NCBI RefSeq assembly: GCF_010686765.1
Contig: NZ_JAAGWF010000017.1
Span: forward strand, 1-64,000
DNA length: 64,000 bases
Direction of reading: 5' to 3'
Source of the DNA: Geodermatophilus sabuli
GTDB lineage: Bacteria > Actinomycetota > Actinomycetes > Mycobacteriales > Geodermatophilaceae
A model generated the notes under the pieces. The model did no database searches and had not been told where the DNA came from. It saw only the letters and a list, made by a program, of their open reading frames with translations. Below are positions 48,468 to 59,726 of this stretch, piece by piece. Position numbers and translations under genes: made by a program. Numbering within the stretch: position 1 is the first letter of the stretch; each line of letters opens with the position of its first letter.

Positions 48468-49049
48468 TCACCGCCCCGCGACCCACCCGATGAACCACAG
48501 CGAGAAGGCGGCGATCGCCGGCGGGAAGGCCAGGACCAGGTAGGCGGCGAACACGCGGTCCAGTCGCCAGCTGATCCGCTGCCGGGGACCGTTCATGCGG
48601 TGCCGGCCGGTGACCGGCAACGGCGCCCGGGCCACGGCGGCCTCCTCCCCGGCGGTCAGGGCGACCGAGCGTGCTGCCTGCCAGGCCTCGACGCGGGCCC
48701 AGCCCGGCGCCACGCCGCAGATCAGCGCCAGCACCGCCGCGCCGGCCAGGACCGGCAGCAGGTCGACGGTCCCCAGCAGGAGCAGCCCGGCAGCGGCGGC
48801 GCCGGCGGTGAAGCCGGCGACGGTGACCGCGGCGAAGCAGAAGACCGCCCCGAAGGTGACCATCAGGATCGCGTAGCCGGGCAGCATGGCGTCGACCCAC
48901 GAGCCGCCCATGACGAGCATCAGCGGCACCTCGGCGGCGAGCACCAGCCCGCAGGTGAGGAACACGCGGCGCAGCGGCACCCGCGGGGGCCGCACCGCCC
49001 ACGACGTGTCCAGTCGATCGGCCACCGTCGGCGTGAGCACCGCGCTCAT
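48468..49049 (-). CDS. Membrane partner of the MshEN glycosyltransferase
   Basis: A 193-residue membrane protein without a known family. The N-terminal cytoplasmic segment (VADRLDTSWAVRPPRVPLRR) is followed by four hydrophobic helices, including VFLTCGLVLAAEVPLMLVMG and ILMVTFGAVFCFAAVTVAGF. A cytoplasmic loop holding VARAPLPVTGRHRMNGPRQR follows, then a last helix pair near FAAYLVLAFPPAIAAFSLWF. Its ATG overlaps the stop of the glycosyltransferase gene (ATGA), so they are made together, as with accessory subunits of polysaccharide synthases. Function is inferred only from this coupling. Confidence 0.75.
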   Translation of the reverse strand: MSAVLTPTVADRLDTSWAVRPPRVPLRRVFLTCGLVLAAEVPLMLVMGGSWVDAMLPGYAILMVTFGAVFCFAAVTVAGFTAGAAAAGLLLLGTVDLLPVLAGAAVLALICGVAPGWARVEAWQAARSVALTAGEEAAVARAPLPVTGRHRMNGPRQRISWRLDRVFAAYLVLAFPPAIAAFSLWFIGWVAGR

Positions 49050-51106
49050 CGCTGCACCTCCGTGGAGACGTCGGTCCAGGCCAGCCGGCCGTGGACGTCG
49101 CCGGCGGCGTGCCGGCCCGCGCCGGCGGGTGCCGGCGGCTGCACGGTCCGGTCCTCCGCCTGCGTCTCGGCGGCCGGCCCGTCGGGCGCACCGCCCTGGA
49201 CGTGGGCGGACAGGCCGTGCTGGGTCTTCTCCCAGTAGAAGGGCTTGGTCAGCAGCTGCCAAGCGGCCTTGTAGGACGCGATGGAGTGCAGCAGCCAGTA
49301 GACCGGGGAGAACAGCGCGAAGGGCACCAGCCCGTAGCTGCGGCGCTTGAAGCCGGCCAGCAGCGACAGGTAGATGATCACGCCGTTGCCGAACAGCAGG
49401 TTGGCCAGGCTGACCAGCACCACCCACTCCGGCAGGGCCGGCACCAGCACGCCCGGGAAGACCAGCTCGGCGAGGAACAGCAGGTAGAGCCACGGGGTGG
49501 CCAGGAACATCAGCGGCGTCCCACCGATCAGCAGCGCGAAGCCCGCGGCCTGCCGGAGACCGACGGTGCGGACCAGCCTCACCGGGTGGCGGGTGTGCAC
49601 CAGGACCGTCTGCATGTAGCCCTTGATCCAGCGGCTGCGCTGCCGGATCCAGTTGCCGACGGCCATGTTGGCCTCTTCGTAGGTCGTCGAGTTGACGACC
49701 GCGACGCGGTGGCCACGGGCCGACGCGCGGATGCCCAGGTCGGCGTCCTCGGTGACGTTGTAGGGGTCCCAGCCACCGAGCTGGCGCAGCAGGTCGGTCC
49801 GGAAGTGGTTGCTCGTGCCGCCCAGCGGGATGGGCAGCCGCAGCTTGTCCAGGCCGGCGAGGGTGTAGTCGAACCAGGAGGAGTACTCGAGGGTGAACAT
49901 GCGGGTCAGCAGGTTCTCCCGCGCGTTGAAGTAGTTCAGCGCCGCCTGCACGCACACCAGGTCGTCGCCGCCCTTGCGGAACGCGATGAGCGACTTCTTC
50001 AGCTGGTCGGGGTCGGGGCGGTCCTCGGCGTCGTAGATGACGACGAACTCGCCGCGCGCGAAGGCCAGCCCCACGTTGCACGCCCGCGGCTTGGTCTTGG
50101 GCAGCGAGTGGGGGACCACGATGATCCGGACGAGGTCCGGCGGGGCGGCGGCCAGTGCGGCGGCCAGCGTCTCGGGGTCGTCCTCCTCCAGCAGGAGCAG
50201 GATCTCCAGCTTCTCGCGCGGGTAGTCCAGCGCGGCCAGGTTGCGCATGAGCAGGCCGACGATCCCGGCCTCCTTGTAGACCGGCACGAGGATCGTGTAC
50301 CGGGGCAGGTCGGTGTCGACCAGGGCCTCGACCTCGGCGTCGCTGACCTGCTCGACGGTCTCGTAGGCGGTGCCGACGGTGCTGATCAGCGCCTTGGTGC
50401 CCACGGCGAGGGCGACGGCGACGTTCACGGTCGTGACCAGGACCAGCATGGTCGTGGAGAACCACAGGGCGGCGCTGAGGATCGTGCCGGCGGCCACGGT
50501 GATGCCGAGGGCGACCTGCTGCCAGACGAACACCGTCGAGGCCGACTCGTCGGGGCGCCGCTCGGCGAGCGAGCGGACCGCGTCGTGGACCAGCTCGTCG
50601 CGCCACACGGTCCGCAGCGCCCGCTGCACGTCCCAGTCGGTGGTGACGACCTGGCGGACTCGCCGGATGCCGGTGCGGTCGACGACCTCCTGCGCGATGT
50701 GCGCCGAGGGCCGGCCCGCGGTGGCCACCACGACCTGCAGCTCGCCGTCGTCGTCCCGCTCCACCTGCAGCGGCACCCAGACCTCGCGGGCGAGCATCGC
50801 GGAGGGGAACAGGCGGGCCAGGTCGGTGTCGACCTCCATCGGGTCCACGAACGCCATGTCCGCGCCCCACACCTCCGCGAGGGCGACGTACAGCTGGCGT
50901 CGGGTCACCAGACCGCGGGCGAGCAGGACGGCACCCAGGGGCTCACCGATCCGCTCGTGCTGGCGGAGGGCGTCGAAGAGCTGGGCCTCGGTCAGCACGC
51001 CCTGCTCGACGAGGACGTCGCCGAGCCGGCGTTCGGGTGCTGACGGCGGCCCGGACACCGGGGTGGCCCGGCCGGCGGTCGTCGGCTTCGAGAACAGGAG
51101 CGTCAC
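49046..51106 (-). CDS. Family-2 glycosyltransferase with c-di-GMP-binding MshEN domain
   Basis: A 686-residue fusion. Residues 27-50 (RLGDVLVEQGVLTEAQLFDA start) and 56-79 (PLGAVLLARGLVTRRQLYVA start) are the two 24-residue MshEN motifs, with exactly five residues between. A T2SSE N-terminal-like region continues to about 165. Two helices (195-235) lead to a GT2 domain with ILVPVYKEAG (272-281), DAED (359-362), TED (452-454) and QRSRW (489-493), the catalytic and product-binding motifs of processive synthases. Three or more helices follow. MshEN binds c-di-GMP in secretion and pilus ATPases, so an exopolysaccharide synthase switched on by c-di-GMP is inferred. GTG 51106 is the start. Confidence 0.88.
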   Translation of the reverse strand: MTLLFSKPTTAGRATPVSGPPSAPERRLGDVLVEQGVLTEAQLFDALRQHERIGEPLGAVLLARGLVTRRQLYVALAEVWGADMAFVDPMEVDTDLARLFPSAMLAREVWVPLQVERDDDGELQVVVATAGRPSAHIAQEVVDRTGIRRVRQVVTTDWDVQRALRTVWRDELVHDAVRSLAERRPDESASTVFVWQQVALGITVAAGTILSAALWFSTTMLVLVTTVNVAVALAVGTKALISTVGTAYETVEQVSDAEVEALVDTDLPRYTILVPVYKEAGIVGLLMRNLAALDYPREKLEILLLLEEDDPETLAAALAAAPPDLVRIIVVPHSLPKTKPRACNVGLAFARGEFVVIYDAEDRPDPDQLKKSLIAFRKGGDDLVCVQAALNYFNARENLLTRMFTLEYSSWFDYTLAGLDKLRLPIPLGGTSNHFRTDLLRQLGGWDPYNVTEDADLGIRASARGHRVAVVNSTTYEEANMAVGNWIRQRSRWIKGYMQTVLVHTRHPVRLVRTVGLRQAAGFALLIGGTPLMFLATPWLYLLFLAELVFPGVLVPALPEWVVLVSLANLLFGNGVIIYLSLLAGFKRRSYGLVPFALFSPVYWLLHSIASYKAAWQLLTKPFYWEKTQHGLSAHVQGGAPDGPAAETQAEDRTVQPPAPAGAGRHAAGDVHGRLAWTDVSTEVQR

Positions 51107-51460: not shown

Positions 51461-53056
51461 TCAGCGGCGGCGGCGCCGGGTGCCGAACAGGCCGCGGGTG
51501 ATCTCGCGGCCCAGCGCCGAGGCCGCCGACCGGGCGAAGGACCGGAAGACCGAGGAGCCCAGCACCTGGTCGAGGACGCCCTCCTCCGGCTCCTCGGCAC
51601 GGGTCCGGGACCGTGCGGGCCGGGCCCGGGGTGCCCGCCGTGCCGGCTCGTCCGGTGCCGGCTCCTGGTCCGGCGGGGCCGCCAGCCGCGCGGCCAGCCG
51701 CTCGTAGGCGGAGTCGCGGTCAACCGGCTGCCCGTACCGCGCCGACAGCGGCGAGGAGGCGACCGCCTGCCGCAGGCTGGCCGGGTCCGCCGGTGCCATG
51801 AGTGAGCGCGGTGCGCGGAGCAGCGTCGCGGCCACCGGCGTGGGCGAGCCGCGCTCGGACAGCACGGTGATCGCGGCCTCACCGGTGCCCAGCGAGGTGA
51901 GCAGCTCCTCGAGGTCGTAGTCCTCCGAGGTCGGGAAGGTCGACACCGTCCGGCGCAGGGCCTTGGCGTCCTCGGGGGTGAAGGTGCGCAGCGCGTGCTG
52001 CACGCGGTTGCCGAGCTGGCCGAGCACGGCACCGGGCACGTCGCCCGGGACCTGCGTCACGAAGAAGACGCCGACGCCCTTGGAGCGGATCAGCCGCACG
52101 GTCAGCGTCACCGCCTCGAGGAACGCCTTGCTCGCCCCGGTGAACAGCAGGTGTGCCTCGTCGAGGAAGAAGACCAGCCTCGGCCGCTCCAGGTCGCCGA
52201 CCTCCGGGAGCTCCTCGAACAGCTCCGCGAGCAGCCACATGAGGAAGGTCGAGAACAGGGCGGGCCGGTCCTGCACCGCGGCCAGCTCCACCGCGGTGAT
52301 CACGCCCCGGCCGTCGGGGGCGGTGCGCAGCAGGTCGGCGGGTGCGAAGGCGGGTTCCCCGAAGAAGACGTCACCGCCGATGTCCTCGAGGGCCACGAGC
52401 TCGCGCAGGATCACCCCCACCGTGGCCGGGGACAGCCCGCCCAGCCCGCGGAGCTCCGCCCGGCCCTCGTCGCTGACCAGCCAGCTGAGCAGGGCCCGCA
52501 GGTCCTTGAGGTCGAGCAGGGGCAGGCCGGCCTCGTCGGCGTGGTGGAAGACCAGGCCGAGCGAGCTCTCCTGGGTCGCGTTCAGCCCGAGGACCTTGGC
52601 GAGCAGCACCGGACCGAAGTCGGTGACGGTGGCGCGGACCGGGACGCCGTCGCCCAGCCCGCCCAGGGCGAGGAACTCGACGGGGGAGGCGGTCGGCGTC
52701 CAGGGGTCCCCGGTCTGCGCCGCCCGGGCGGTGACCCGTTCCCCGGGCGGGCCCGGCTGGGACAGTCCGCTCAGGTCGCCCTTCACGTCGGCGACGACGA
52801 CGGGCACGCCGGCCGCCGACAGCTGCTCGGCCATCAGCTGGAGCGTCTTCGTCTTGCCCGTGCCGGTCGCACCGGCGATGAGACCGTGCCGGGTCAGCAT
52901 GGCCAGGGGCAGCCGCACGGCCGCACCCGGGTGCGGCTGCCCGCCGTGGACGACCGAGCCCAGGTCGAGTGCGGGGCCGCTGGTCGCGTAGCCGGACGCG
53001 ATCCGCGCGGCCGTCTCGTCGACGGGCGGGCCGGGGGACGGCGGGGGCTGCGTCAC
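51461..53056 (-). CDS. HerA-like ATPase (DUF853)
   Basis: A 531-residue P-loop ATPase of the DUF853/HerA-like family. Walker A is GATGTGKTKTLQLMAEQL (about 62-79), Walker B is RLVFFLDEAHLLF, and an arginine-finger region RTFTPEDAKALRR follows. The C-terminus is a disordered Pro/Arg/Glu stretch, then a short basic helix ending in RRRR. These proteins resemble DNA-translocating HerA, but the DUF853 branch has no proven role. It lies upstream of the glycosyltransferase on the same strand across a 354-bp gap, so co-transcription is doubtful. Confidence 0.88.
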   Translation of the reverse strand: MTQPPPSPGPPVDETAARIASGYATSGPALDLGSVVHGGQPHPGAAVRLPLAMLTRHGLIAGATGTGKTKTLQLMAEQLSAAGVPVVVADVKGDLSGLSQPGPPGERVTARAAQTGDPWTPTASPVEFLALGGLGDGVPVRATVTDFGPVLLAKVLGLNATQESSLGLVFHHADEAGLPLLDLKDLRALLSWLVSDEGRAELRGLGGLSPATVGVILRELVALEDIGGDVFFGEPAFAPADLLRTAPDGRGVITAVELAAVQDRPALFSTFLMWLLAELFEELPEVGDLERPRLVFFLDEAHLLFTGASKAFLEAVTLTVRLIRSKGVGVFFVTQVPGDVPGAVLGQLGNRVQHALRTFTPEDAKALRRTVSTFPTSEDYDLEELLTSLGTGEAAITVLSERGSPTPVAATLLRAPRSLMAPADPASLRQAVASSPLSARYGQPVDRDSAYERLAARLAAPPDQEPAPDEPARRAPRARPARSRTRAEEPEEGVLDQVLGSSVFRSFARSAASALGREITRGLFGTRRRRR

Positions 53057-53216: not shown

Positions 53217-55205
53217 ATGAGCACGCGGACGAGCGGCACGTCGGGGGGTCGCGCTCCACTGCGACGGGTCCGGCGCAGTGCCCGGAGGCGGCTGTCCACG
53301 CACGCCGCCACGGCCGGGCTGGTGGCGGTGCTCCTGGTGCTGACCGTCTTCTCGGTGTTCGCCGCCATCCTGAACGCGCGGGCGACGACCGAGGCCCAGC
53401 TGAGTGCCTCGGTCACCGAGGCCTCCGAGGAGGCCGAGCGGCTGCTCCTGGTCATGGAGGACCTCGGTGACGAGCTGGCCGTCGAGCCGGACGCCGAGCT
53501 GCGCGCGGAGTACGACGAGGCGAGTGCCGCCACCAGGGACGCCCTGCTCGAGCTCGGGGCGATCCCCGGCACCGGGCACGACGCGCTGGTCGCCGGCTGG
53601 CTGGGGCTGCACGAGGACTACGGCCAGGCCGTCGAGGCACTGATCGCCGCGGCGTCGATCGACCCCGCGGGCGCGCAGGCGTTCGAGGAGGCCTACGTCG
53701 ACCCGCACTTCGACCCGCTCGAGGCCGTCGTGGAGGACGAGGCCAGGGAGCACGTGAACGACGCCCAGCAGGCGCTGGCCGCCATGAGCCGGTCCCAGCT
53801 GCTGCTGCTCTGGGCCACCCTCGCCGTCTTCGGCGTCGGGCTGGGGCTGGTGGGCTGGTTCACCGCGGTGCTCACCCGCAGCCGGCGCGAGACGGTCGCC
53901 CAGGCCGAGGCGAACCGGCAGCAGGCGCTGCACGACGCGCTCACCGGCCTGCCCAACCGCACGCTCCTGCGCCAGCGCGGCGAGGCCGCCCTGGACGCGG
54001 ACGGACCCTCGGCGCTCATGCTCATCGACCTCGACCGGTTCAAGGAGATCAACGACACGCTGGGCCACGCCCACGGCGACCTCGTGCTGCAGGTGGTCTC
54101 GGCCCGGCTCCGGGAGACCGTCCGGGCCGCGGACACCGTCGCCCGGCTGGGCGGCGACGAGTTCGCCATCCTGCTGCCGGCCGTCGGGGACGCCGCCACC
54201 GCCCTGGAGCTCGCCGCCCGGGCACTGGCGGCGATGGAGGCTCCCATCGAGGCCGACGGCGTCTTCCTCGACGTCGACGCCAGCATCGGGATCGCGCTGT
54301 CGGGGGAGCACGGGACCGACGTCGAGACCCTGCTGCAGAACGCCGACATCGCCATGTACTCCGCGAAGGACCGCGGGCTCGGCGTCTGCGTGTACGACGC
54401 CGACCTCAACGAGCACAGCCCCGAGCGCCTGGGCCTGCTGGGTGAACTGAAGCGGGCCATCGACACCGGTGAGCTGGTGCTGCACTACCAGCCCAAGGTC
54501 GGCCTGCCGGGGGAGGACGTGCGCGGGGTCGAGGCACTGGTCCGGTGGGAGCACCCCCAGCGCGGCACCGTGCCCCCGGCGGTGTTCATCCCGCTCGCCG
54601 AGCGGACGCCGCTGATCCGGCCGCTCACCCGGTACGTCATCGACGCCGCGCTGCAGCAGTGCGCGCAGTGGCTCGCGGAGGGCCGCTCCCTGCACGTCGC
54701 CGTCAACATCTCCGCCCGCAACCTCCTGGACGAGCGGTTCGTCGACGACGTCCTCGAGGCGCTGGCACGCTCGCAGGTGCCGGCGCACTTCCTGGAGCTC
54801 GAGGTCACCGAGAGCGCGATCATGGCCGACCCGACCCGGGCGCGGGCCATCCTCGGCCGCCTGGCCGACCTCGGCATCACGCTGTCGATCGACGACTTCG
54901 GCGCCGGCTACACCTCTCTGGCCCACCTCAAGGACCTCCCGGTCCACCGCCTGAAGATCGACCGGTCGTTCGTGTCCTCCATGGCCACCGACCCGAGCAA
55001 CGCCCTCATCGTGCGGTCGATCGTCGAGCTCGGGCACAACCTCGGGCTCAGCACCGTCGCCGAGGGGGTCGAGGACCAGGACACCTGGGAGCTCCTGGGC
55101 AGGCTGGGCTGCGACGTGGCCCAGGGGTACCACCTGTGCCGTCCCCAGCCGGCCGACGTCCTGGCGGCGTGGTTCGACAGCGTCCAGTCGGCCCTGCCCG
55201 CCTGA
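53217..55205 (+). CDS. Membrane GGDEF-EAL protein (c-di-GMP synthase/phosphodiesterase)
   Basis: A 662-residue protein. A basic N-terminus, helix 1 (about 31-52), a roughly 140-residue acidic helical extracytoplasmic sensor and helix 2 (about 194-220) lead to a GGDEF domain with an intact GGDEF (312-316). An RxxD inhibitory site (RAAD 303-306) lies exactly five residues before it. The EAL domain is intact as well: EAL 439-441, NISARN, LEVTES, DDFGAGY (559-565) and Lys580. Both activities are therefore possible, with net direction set by the sensor. It is divergent from the HerA-like gene and 2.1 kb from a synthase gene with a c-di-GMP-binding domain. Confidence 0.94.
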   Translation: MSTRTSGTSGGRAPLRRVRRSARRRLSTHAATAGLVAVLLVLTVFSVFAAILNARATTEAQLSASVTEASEEAERLLLVMEDLGDELAVEPDAELRAEYDEASAATRDALLELGAIPGTGHDALVAGWLGLHEDYGQAVEALIAAASIDPAGAQAFEEAYVDPHFDPLEAVVEDEAREHVNDAQQALAAMSRSQLLLLWATLAVFGVGLGLVGWFTAVLTRSRRETVAQAEANRQQALHDALTGLPNRTLLRQRGEAALDADGPSALMLIDLDRFKEINDTLGHAHGDLVLQVVSARLRETVRAADTVARLGGDEFAILLPAVGDAATALELAARALAAMEAPIEADGVFLDVDASIGIALSGEHGTDVETLLQNADIAMYSAKDRGLGVCVYDADLNEHSPERLGLLGELKRAIDTGELVLHYQPKVGLPGEDVRGVEALVRWEHPQRGTVPPAVFIPLAERTPLIRPLTRYVIDAALQQCAQWLAEGRSLHVAVNISARNLLDERFVDDVLEALARSQVPAHFLELEVTESAIMADPTRARAILGRLADLGITLSIDDFGAGYTSLAHLKDLPVHRLKIDRSFVSSMATDPSNALIVRSIVELGHNLGLSTVAEGVEDQDTWELLGRLGCDVAQGYHLCRPQPADVLAAWFDSVQSALPA

Positions 55206-58613: not shown

Positions 58614-59726
58614 GTGGCGAGCGACGGTGGCGGAGGCCGGCGCCGGGAGACGTGGGACGTCCCCGGGGCCGCGACCCGTGCGCTGCTCGCGACGGCCGAC
58701 GAGCACCTGCTGCCGGAGGTGGCCCGGACGGCGCGCGCCCTGGGCCTGTCGGTGTTCGCGACCCCCGGGCTCGTGGACCTCGTGGACGAGCCGGGCGGGG
58801 GGCGGATCGAGCGGCTGTTCCGCCGGCTGGCGCGGGAGCTGACCCCGGCCGAGGCGGAGCACGTCCGGGTGGCCGCCGATCCGCCGGAGGAGTGGAGCGC
58901 CATGGCCGCGCGCCTGCTGACCGCTCCCACGCTCGCCGTCGAGCTGGCCCGGCGCGGCGTGACCGCCGACATCGGCGTGCTCGCCGAGGCCGAGCTGTGG
59001 TCGGTCTACCAGCCGGTGGTCCGGCTGTCCGACCGGTCGGTGGTCGCCCACGAGGCGCTGCTGCGCGGGTTGGTCGACGGCCGGGAGGTCGGCGGTGGAG
59101 ACCTGTTCTTCGTCGCGGAGTCGGCCGGCTGGCTGCCCCGGCTGGACCGGATCGGCCGCGAGTCGGCGATCGCGGGTGCGGCGTCCTGGCTGGGTGAGGC
59201 CGACCTGTTCGTCAACTCCGACCCGGCCTCGATCCACCGGCCGCAGGTCAGCCTGTCCTCCACCGAGCAGGCGGTGCACGACGCCGGCATCGACGCCTCG
59301 CGGCTGGTCATCGAGGTCGGGGAGGTCTCGGCGGTCACCGACCGCGGGCACCTGGTGTCGGTGCTCGAGCACTACCGCACCCTCGGCTGGCGGGTGGCCC
59401 TCGACGACGTGGCCGCCGGCTGGTCGAGCCGGGCGCTGCTCGCCGCCGTCCGGCCGGACGTCGTGAAGCTCGGCAAGTCGCTGGTCCAGGCCCTGCCCGA
59501 CGACGGCGCCCGGACGACGGTGCGGACGGTCGTGGAGCAGGCCCACCGCCTCGGCGCGCAGGTGGTGGCCGAAGGCGTCGAGACCGACCAGGTCGCCGAG
59601 GAGGTCGCCGCGCTCGGCGCCGACCTCGGCCAGGGCTGGCTGTTCGGCCGCCCGGTGACCCCACCCTCGGACGAGGCGGAACCCGTGTCCACGTGGACGC
59701 CGGTCCACCGGGGAGGCCCGCGCTGA
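58614..59726 (+). CDS. Stand-alone EAL-domain protein
   Basis: A 370-residue cytoplasmic protein. The N-terminal 120 residues are an unrecognised helical domain (RALLATADEHLLPEVARTAR). The EAL domain follows from about 125: the EAL motif is in VVAHEALLRG, the Asn motif is LFVNSDP, the second Glu is in VIEVGEVSAV, the Asp pair in VALDDVAAGWSS, Lys in DVVKLGKSLV and the final Glu in VVAEGVET. Substitutions around the core make full activity uncertain, but metal ligands appear kept. It would hydrolyse or bind c-di-GMP. GTG 58614 is the start; a TetR gene is divergent. Confidence 0.85.
   Translation: MASDGGGGRRRETWDVPGAATRALLATADEHLLPEVARTARALGLSVFATPGLVDLVDEPGGGRIERLFRRLARELTPAEAEHVRVAADPPEEWSAMAARLLTAPTLAVELARRGVTADIGVLAEAELWSVYQPVVRLSDRSVVAHEALLRGLVDGREVGGGDLFFVAESAGWLPRLDRIGRESAIAGAASWLGEADLFVNSDPASIHRPQVSLSSTEQAVHDAGIDASRLVIEVGEVSAVTDRGHLVSVLEHYRTLGWRVALDDVAAGWSSRALLAAVRPDVVKLGKSLVQALPDDGARTTVRTVVEQAHRLGAQVVAEGVETDQVAEEVAALGADLGQGWLFGRPVTPPSDEAEPVSTWTPVHRGGPR

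Follow-up and report, generated by a model that had tools for sequence, protein, structure and literature searches.

How might a membrane-bound glycan synthase be controlled when the sensor domain at its N-terminus departs from known receptors of cyclic di-guanosine monophosphate (c-di-GMP) at several contact residues, and what does the small membrane protein encoded directly behind it contribute? This question is raised by a gene pair of Geodermatophilus sabuli that lies within positions 1 to 64,000 of contig NZ_JAAGWF010000017.1 (assembly GCF_010686765.1); this whole stretch of 64,000 nucleotides (nt) is called the window here. The MshEN-GT2 synthase gene (49046..51106, minus strand), in which MshEN is the sensor-type domain and GT2 a family 2 glycosyltransferase, encodes 686 residues from a putative GTG start, the one taken by the first-pass annotation of the locus; inspection of the reading frame shows that it stays open upstream. 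The partner gene (48468..49049, minus strand) encodes a membrane protein of 193 residues, probably a shortened XagC-like protein. We find that the pair truly is a glycan synthase module of the sensor type; such modules are known, and in this one the sensor is divergent and the partner probably reduced. In functional terms, we lean towards a two-gene exopolysaccharide (EPS) synthase module of the XagB-XagC kind that is switched by c-di-GMP and accompanied by a non-catalytic companion, a reading that we hold to be reasonably probable.

The two genes are tightly coupled. The synthase stop and the partner start share the tetranucleotide ATGA (49046..49049, minus strand), so that 4 nt are common to both, and a start codon sits at the same 4-nt overlap in all 20 family relatives examined. 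The partner contains about four hydrophobic stretches (five overlapping windows), in line with the four to six helices that had been ascribed to it. A search for the same pair elsewhere in the family had been proposed, and the pairing recurs: the synthase is present in 26 of 112 genomes of the window's family (expectation value, E, of 1e-40 or better), with the coupled overlap in each of the 20 relatives.

The sensor domain begins with two 24-residue motifs, motif I RLGDVLVEQGVLTEAQLFDALRQH (residues 27-50; 50957..51028, minus strand) and motif II PLGAVLLARGLVTRRQLYVALAEV (residues 56-79; 50870..50941, minus strand), which are separated by the five residues ERIGE and lie at the N-terminus just where the first-pass annotation had seen them. 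The NCBIfam model NF053729, a c-di-GMP motif related to MshE, matches residues 27-78 with 55.9 bits against a cut-off of 38 (E 2.7e-15), and the Pfam family MshEN (PF05157) matches the following MshEN_C part (residues 87-166; 50609..50848, minus strand) with 31.8 bits against a cut-off of 23.1, its single match in the 4.79-Mb genome. In sequence comparisons with solved structures, the Vibrio cholerae MshE chain 5htl_A aligns with residues 25-107 (E 5.1e-8), and PilB/PilF chains also match. Because NF053729, PF05157 and 5htl_A all match, the MshEN motifs are not a chance resemblance.

The contact residues bear on whether such a domain could still bind its ligand. Motif I carries the equivalents of MshE residues R9, L10, G11, L25 and L29, and motif II those of L39, G40, L54 and L58; we refer to these nine Gly, Leu and Arg contacts as the clamp. 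Measured against the relaxed motif of PMC5013675, which has 11 positions and allows Pro, each motif fits 10 and fails at the last. We compared 25 family sequences, namely the window and L003-L026, with L027 omitted as it is without the domain. None of the 25 varies at the positions of R9, L10, G11, L29, L39, G40, L54 or L58, and 24 of them retain L25; 8 of 9 clamp positions are therefore invariant, as against 1 of 8 core positions and 7 of 33 others. When nine-position sets were drawn at random, 4 of 100,000 were as conserved as the clamp if drawn from 50 positions (the three polar positions having been removed beforehand), and 22 of 100,000 if drawn from the 37 positions of hydrophobic, Gly, Ala or Arg type; these figures are support rather than proof, since kinship and structural need can inflate them. 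In MshE, changing a single conserved hydrophobic contact carries a cost of more than 10-fold, and a change of Arg9, Asp12 or Gln32 a cost of at most 5-fold (available text of PMC5013675).

Several observations weigh against a working sensor. The last residue of both motifs is changed, from Gln to His50 and from Gln to Val79, which the first-pass annotation did not state, and motif II opens with Pro56 in place of the Arg38 equivalent. Pro at the Arg38 position and Val at the Gln61 position occur in 25 of 25 family sequences, and the Gln32 equivalent is replaced in 22 of them (His in 10, Ala in 5, Gly in 4 and Ser in 3, with Gln kept in 3). Among the 11 named loci of highest identity (L058-L068, from Chloroflexota, Thermomicrobia, other Actinomycetota and one Gemmatimonadota, which do not form one clade), Gln32 is present in 11, Arg38 in 9 and Gln61 in 3; since Gln32 is kept in all 11, it was probably lost in the window's family. 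Finally, one family genome (G104, locus L027) keeps synthase and partner and has no MshEN in any frame of the 1.5 kb upstream. The case for c-di-GMP sensing is weakened because the equivalents of Gln32, Arg38 and Gln61 are all changed. Of the original claim of a c-di-GMP sensor, then, the Gly, Leu and Arg contacts hold up, and the three polar contacts are replaced in the alignment.

These losses, together with the close relative in which the domain was not found, favour the view that MshEN is a relic or serves only as a structural cap: it would keep its fold and packing but bind c-di-GMP no longer, and the synthase would be governed by expression or substrate. XpsE, which does not bind c-di-GMP, likewise combines Q61V with an altered R38; however, it has also lost the Gly and Leu contacts (available text of PMC5013675), which in the window's family are nearly invariant while other positions vary. 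At the other end of the range, NfrB of Escherichia coli is a measured binder with a dissociation constant of 1.0 µM (available text of PMC8669469). As judged from its sequence, the window's domain falls between clear binders and clear non-binders; it likely binds c-di-GMP, possibly weakly, and we consider a vestigial domain rather unlikely.

The wider distribution bears on both readings. The synthase was found in 38 of 394 genomes of a class sample, and a scan of named genomes gave at least 589 relatives, of which 80 were kept as the named loci; the named relatives span Chloroflexota, Actinomycetota, Bacteroidota, Pseudomonadota, Bacillota, Synergistota, Aquificota and others. In a tree of the catalytic part with 103 rows, from which 13 family and 12 Mucilaginibacter-type rows were left out as redundant and L027, L029, L046, L084, L099, L102 and L106 as cut or broken, the window's family forms one clade with a support of 100 in the Shimodaira-Hasegawa-like approximate likelihood ratio test (SH-aLRT). 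We assigned a sensor state to each of these rows: 37 have the clamp with Gln, 11 the clamp without Gln, 11 a partial sensor, 20 a degenerate one, and 24 were labelled absent, a label that rests on where the alignment starts, with no search for a separate upstream gene. The degenerate and absent rows, 44 of 103, count in favour of a vestigial domain, with the same reliance of the absent label on alignment starts. Excluding partial rows, at least 8 changes between clamp and lost states are needed on the tree. In 19 class-sample loci (L038-L057 except L046) the alignment does not start before residue 164 and so lacks MshEN, and NF053729 reaches E 0.001 in 40 of the 46 rows of synthase alignment A2.

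Bacteroidota cut both ways. In 24 rows (L072, L099 and L106 not counted) none of the nine contacts is invariant and neither contact Gly occurs in any row, which counts for the vestige reading; the same rows suggest that the region can persist without its Gly and Leu contacts, a point against that reading for the window's family, where they are nearly invariant. The Bacteroidota pattern suggests a sensor that may have turned structural or may bind another ligand. Among L081-L130, the Bacteroidota loci keep the length of the MshEN region and change its c-di-GMP contacts, Mucilaginibacter having a SIPE-type motif versus RLGD. Two other variations of the synthase frame were seen: several synthases of one genus (L018-L026; for example L018 and L020-L022) lie in frames of 911-1059 residues with long C-terminal tails, and in L031-L036 about 190 to 490 residues of open frame lie ahead of the MshEN region that aligns and may form another unit of MshEN type.

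What does the enzyme make? The GT2 catalytic domain and its membrane helices (residues 206-642; 49181..50491, minus strand) have a predicted fold like that of cellulose and hyaluronan synthases, and Pfam GT2 families cover residues 268-554. The three synthase motifs that had been reported were located as DAED (residues 359-362; 50021..50032), TED (452-454; 49745..49753) and QRSRW (489-493; 49628..49642), all on the minus strand; DAED, TED, Q489, R490, R492 and W493 are invariant in the 11 sequences of alignment A1. An AlphaFold model built with the 46-row alignment A2 reached a predicted local distance difference test (pLDDT) score of 88.4 and a predicted template modelling (pTM) score of 0.86. 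It has four helices at residues 28-79, an alpha/beta part up to residue 167, and then the catalytic domain between membrane helices. Hyaluronan and cellulose synthases rank first when the model is searched with Foldseek, and by VIA-align it superposes over about residues 206-642 on E. coli BcsA (9fnn_A; Z 26.3, 3.6 Å, 379 residues) and on a hyaluronan synthase (8snc_A; Z 24.2, 4.1 Å, 383 residues). The highest Z score, 28.4, belongs to a membrane mannosyltransferase (6yv7_B), an enzyme that is not a polymer synthase and is not known to polymerise; this counts against a polymerising enzyme. It would suit a GT2 protein that moves one or a few sugars onto a lipid or protein carrier without making a polymer, with the partner handling that lipid-linked sugar. 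We think this improbable: BcsA and hyaluronan synthase align across the same span, and DxD, TED and QxxRW are called signatures of processive glycosyltransferases (available text of PMC8669469).

The comparison with BcsA also bears on how the synthase could be regulated. BcsA senses c-di-GMP through a PilZ domain. The catalytic and membrane fold is common to BcsA and the window synthase; the difference is that no PilZ model matches the latter in a Pfam scan. The first-pass annotation saw MshEN as a replacement for PilZ; set beside BcsA this is a fair analogy, one between two synthases that may be controlled alike. V. cholerae MshE shares with the window the two 24-residue motifs, the five-residue spacer and the Gly, Leu and Arg contacts, and differs in having Gln32, Arg38 and Gln61 where the window has His, Pro and Val, and in being an effector ATPase rather than a glycosyltransferase.

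The MshEN-GT2 architecture itself is already known and is not new here. The MshEN domain has been stated to be able to fuse with a glycosyltransferase (available text of PMC5013675), and the direct precedent is NfrB, a c-di-GMP-controlled, MshEN-bearing EPS synthase (available text of PMC8669469). Like the window synthase, NfrB combines a GT2 part with DxD, TED and QxxRW and an MshEN domain, its gene overlaps the next gene of the operon, by 14 nt (same source), and its motif I is imperfect (Pro for Arg and Arg for the last Gln). In NfrB, however, MshEN is C-terminal, so that the order is reversed, its partners are NfrA and YbcH, its motif II is complete while that of the window is not, and its spacer is one residue shorter. 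The NCBIfam NfrB model stays far below its cut-off on the window synthase (67.2 bits against 1170), and its best stretch, residues 26-183, is the MshEN part. The architecture that had been proposed is supported: a processive-type GT2 synthase carries an MshEN domain and has a tightly coupled membrane partner. No paper on the synthase of the window's family turned up among the open-access papers listed in our literature searches.

Relatives in which an N-terminal MshEN-type region precedes the GT2 part, as in XagB and Sfz2, are widespread in several phyla. The window synthase is 45% identical to its Xanthomonas cucurbitae counterpart (L109) over residues 28-638 and 45% to that of Mariprofundus (L092) over 27-634; gene order and kinship suggest that the former is XagB. 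For Sfz2, an N-terminal domain resembling EpsE and joined to GT2 has been described, and RxxD and RxxxR were put forward as c-di-GMP motifs (available text of PMC8250860); the MshEN-type motifs of L092 offer a simpler reading. The phenotypes of xag mutants bear on whether a polymer is made. In X. oryzae pv. oryzicola, single deletions of xagA or xagB do not give the drop in total EPS that a gumD deletion gives, as would suit a non-polymerising GT2, yet the increased biofilm of an rpfG mutant is reduced when xagA or xagB is deleted, and an X. campestris xag deletion is reported to have lower EPS and no biofilm (all in the available text of PMC3609779).

The partner is harder to place. No Pfam or NCBIfam model matches it below E 0.1, and the matches of 21 partner relatives are scattered and weak. 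Its position offers a lead: the place downstream of the synthase is that of xagC in Xanthomonas and sfz3 in stalk-forming iron oxidisers (gene order in the available texts of PMC4643136 and PMC8250860), and from gene order we infer that the XagC-like membrane proteins encoded directly downstream in L109 and L092 are XagC and Sfz3. We searched for XagC-like proteins in the 80 named loci with an iterated profile (E 1e-5) and found them adjoining the synthase in 70: in 62 they lie at most 400 nt downstream of it, and in 8 upstream. In 6 others they lie farther away, and in 4 none was found; in these counts the L065 row is over-trimmed, and L084, L102 and L106, with broken synthase frames, are still included. 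The XagC-like proteins are membrane proteins, mostly of 350-550 residues (452 and 501 in L109 and L092, against 193 for the window partner).

We modelled one XagC-like protein, that of L058, from the 34-row alignment A5. The model (pLDDT 92, pTM 0.91) has the fold of glycosyltransferases of the C type (GT-C) and is nearest to Pmt4 (9i5l_A; Z 18.0) and ArnT (5f15; Z 16.3), with oligosaccharyltransferases at 15.5 or less. A fold shared with enzymes that use lipid-linked sugars is a further point for the carrier-directed GT2 described above. On the sequence level, a Pfam scan of 14 XagC-like proteins (A4) gave matches to PMT_2 in two and PRA1 in one, all weak; a profile search against solved structures gave a single match (E 0.56), which we took as chance. 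The loop-1 acidic residue that GT-C enzymes carry is not conserved throughout A5.

Is the window partner a member of this group? The partner alignment A3 (21 rows) aligns with A5 over 126 columns with a score of 38.4 (E 1.2e-4); none of 300 block shuffles reaches this score (maximum 31.2), and smaller profile comparisons each beat 100 of 100 shuffles (29.3, 33.8 and 34.0 against maxima of 25.3, 27.2 and 31.5). Controls with reversed columns score 16-17 and the synthase profile 17.3. Two results tell against the kinship: the hhalign probability for A3 and A5 is just 55%, and the window partner is absent from the 12 best rows of the single-sequence search with the XagC-like profile. A partner unrelated to XagC, a family-specific subunit for export or assembly, would fit the dearth of database matches, the best E of only 0.0055 for the XagC-like profile against single proteins, and the G. 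sabuli genome, in which A5 has 0 matches, a result that is not informative in the absence of a positive control. We give this alternative a low probability, since besides the shuffle results family partners take the first two places among 3,103 proteins in the trimmed search, the partner occupies the same place beside the synthase, and a 114-residue Kineosporia open reading frame (ORF) in that place (L063, 12433-12777) matches the XagC-like profile at 7.1e-8. This ORF may be an intermediate form that links the window partner with XagC-like proteins. In a class search, the partner profile matched 12 of 296 genomes including the window's own; the 11 further matches are weak (none better than E 4.5e-5), and 10 of them cover about 50 positions within open frames of about 770-820 residues.

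The extent of the match speaks to function. The window partner aligns only with residues 120-249 of the L058 protein, its central helices, and the first loop and PP(L) segment (L058 residues 55-87), which are functional in GT-C enzymes, lie outside it, so that a full GT-C fold is not found. The partner is probably a reduced, non-catalytic relative of XagC, and an accessory role is suggested because the match is limited to the central helices of the XagC-like fold. Of the earlier proposal of an accessory or export subunit, the accessory half is retained in this form, and the partner is no known export subunit. No BcsB-like or XagD-like gene was seen among the named flanking genes, the only place where they were looked for.

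With the c-di-GMP-switched XagB-XagC-like module as our preferred reading, the system could work as follows. On the inner side of the membrane, the GT2 protein would extend a chain with sugars taken from a nucleotide-sugar, and the chain would leave through the synthase's own helices, as in cellulose and hyaluronan synthases. The N-terminal MshEN would bind c-di-GMP mainly through its Gly, Leu and Arg clamp, with polar anchoring weaker than in MshE, and binding would switch the synthase on; control of the synthase by c-di-GMP is likely on these sequence grounds. The small overlapping membrane protein would have no catalytic role; it would accompany the synthase and keep it, or its pore, stable. 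More tentatively, and with more doubt than confidence, the pair may belong to an ancient, phylum-spanning machine of MshEN-GT2 and a GT-C-fold protein in which the sensor has repeatedly decayed, here represented by a glutamine-free clamp sensor and a dead, still obligatory partner bundle. Should c-di-GMP be bound by no more than the clamp, genuine receptors are being missed by sequence rules that require glutamine; should the clamp alone not bind it, a synthase-fused sensor has gone blind and is nevertheless retained. In either case, nature provides complete, clamp-only, degenerate and absent variants of one synthase for testing how sensor and polymerase are wired, and the family draws attention to XagC-like proteins as a conserved, little-studied partner.

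The surroundings of the pair record part of its history. In the 20 of 25 other family members with a synthase match that entered the locus comparison, the pair adjoins rph and rdgB in 19. Among the genomes listed, we also examined 20 of the same genus without a synthase match: rdgB is present in all 20, and 19 have no trace of the pair within up to 1.5 kb on each side. The remaining genome (G053; L175, about 2128-2867) has broken remnants of both genes beside rdgB, with weak traces of MshEN motif I. Our inference is that the family has long possessed the pair and is now losing it, and that on one occasion the sensor disappeared by itself.

For domains linked to c-di-GMP, the genome has 30 GGDEF matches (29 over the cut-off), 21 EAL, 1 PilZ and 1 MshEN, counts that we take in favour of the preferred reading. 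Near the pair, a GGDEF-EAL gene (53217-55205, plus strand) matches both domains strongly. As a dedicated cyclase it was rejected: a relative lies in the 1.5 kb after rdgB in 4 of the 20 same-genus genomes without an intact pair (L162, L164, L169 and L172), so that the gene is a neighbour of the locus and not proof of a local signalling pair. Between it and the synthase lies a HerA-like ATPase (51461-53056, minus strand), for which the 20-kb stretches of 20 relatives contain no counterpart at E 1e-8, so that it may be a local insertion. Farther along, an EAL-only protein is encoded at 58614-59726 (plus strand), and similar EAL-only ORFs occur in the 20-kb stretch around the synthase in 17 of 20 relatives compared.

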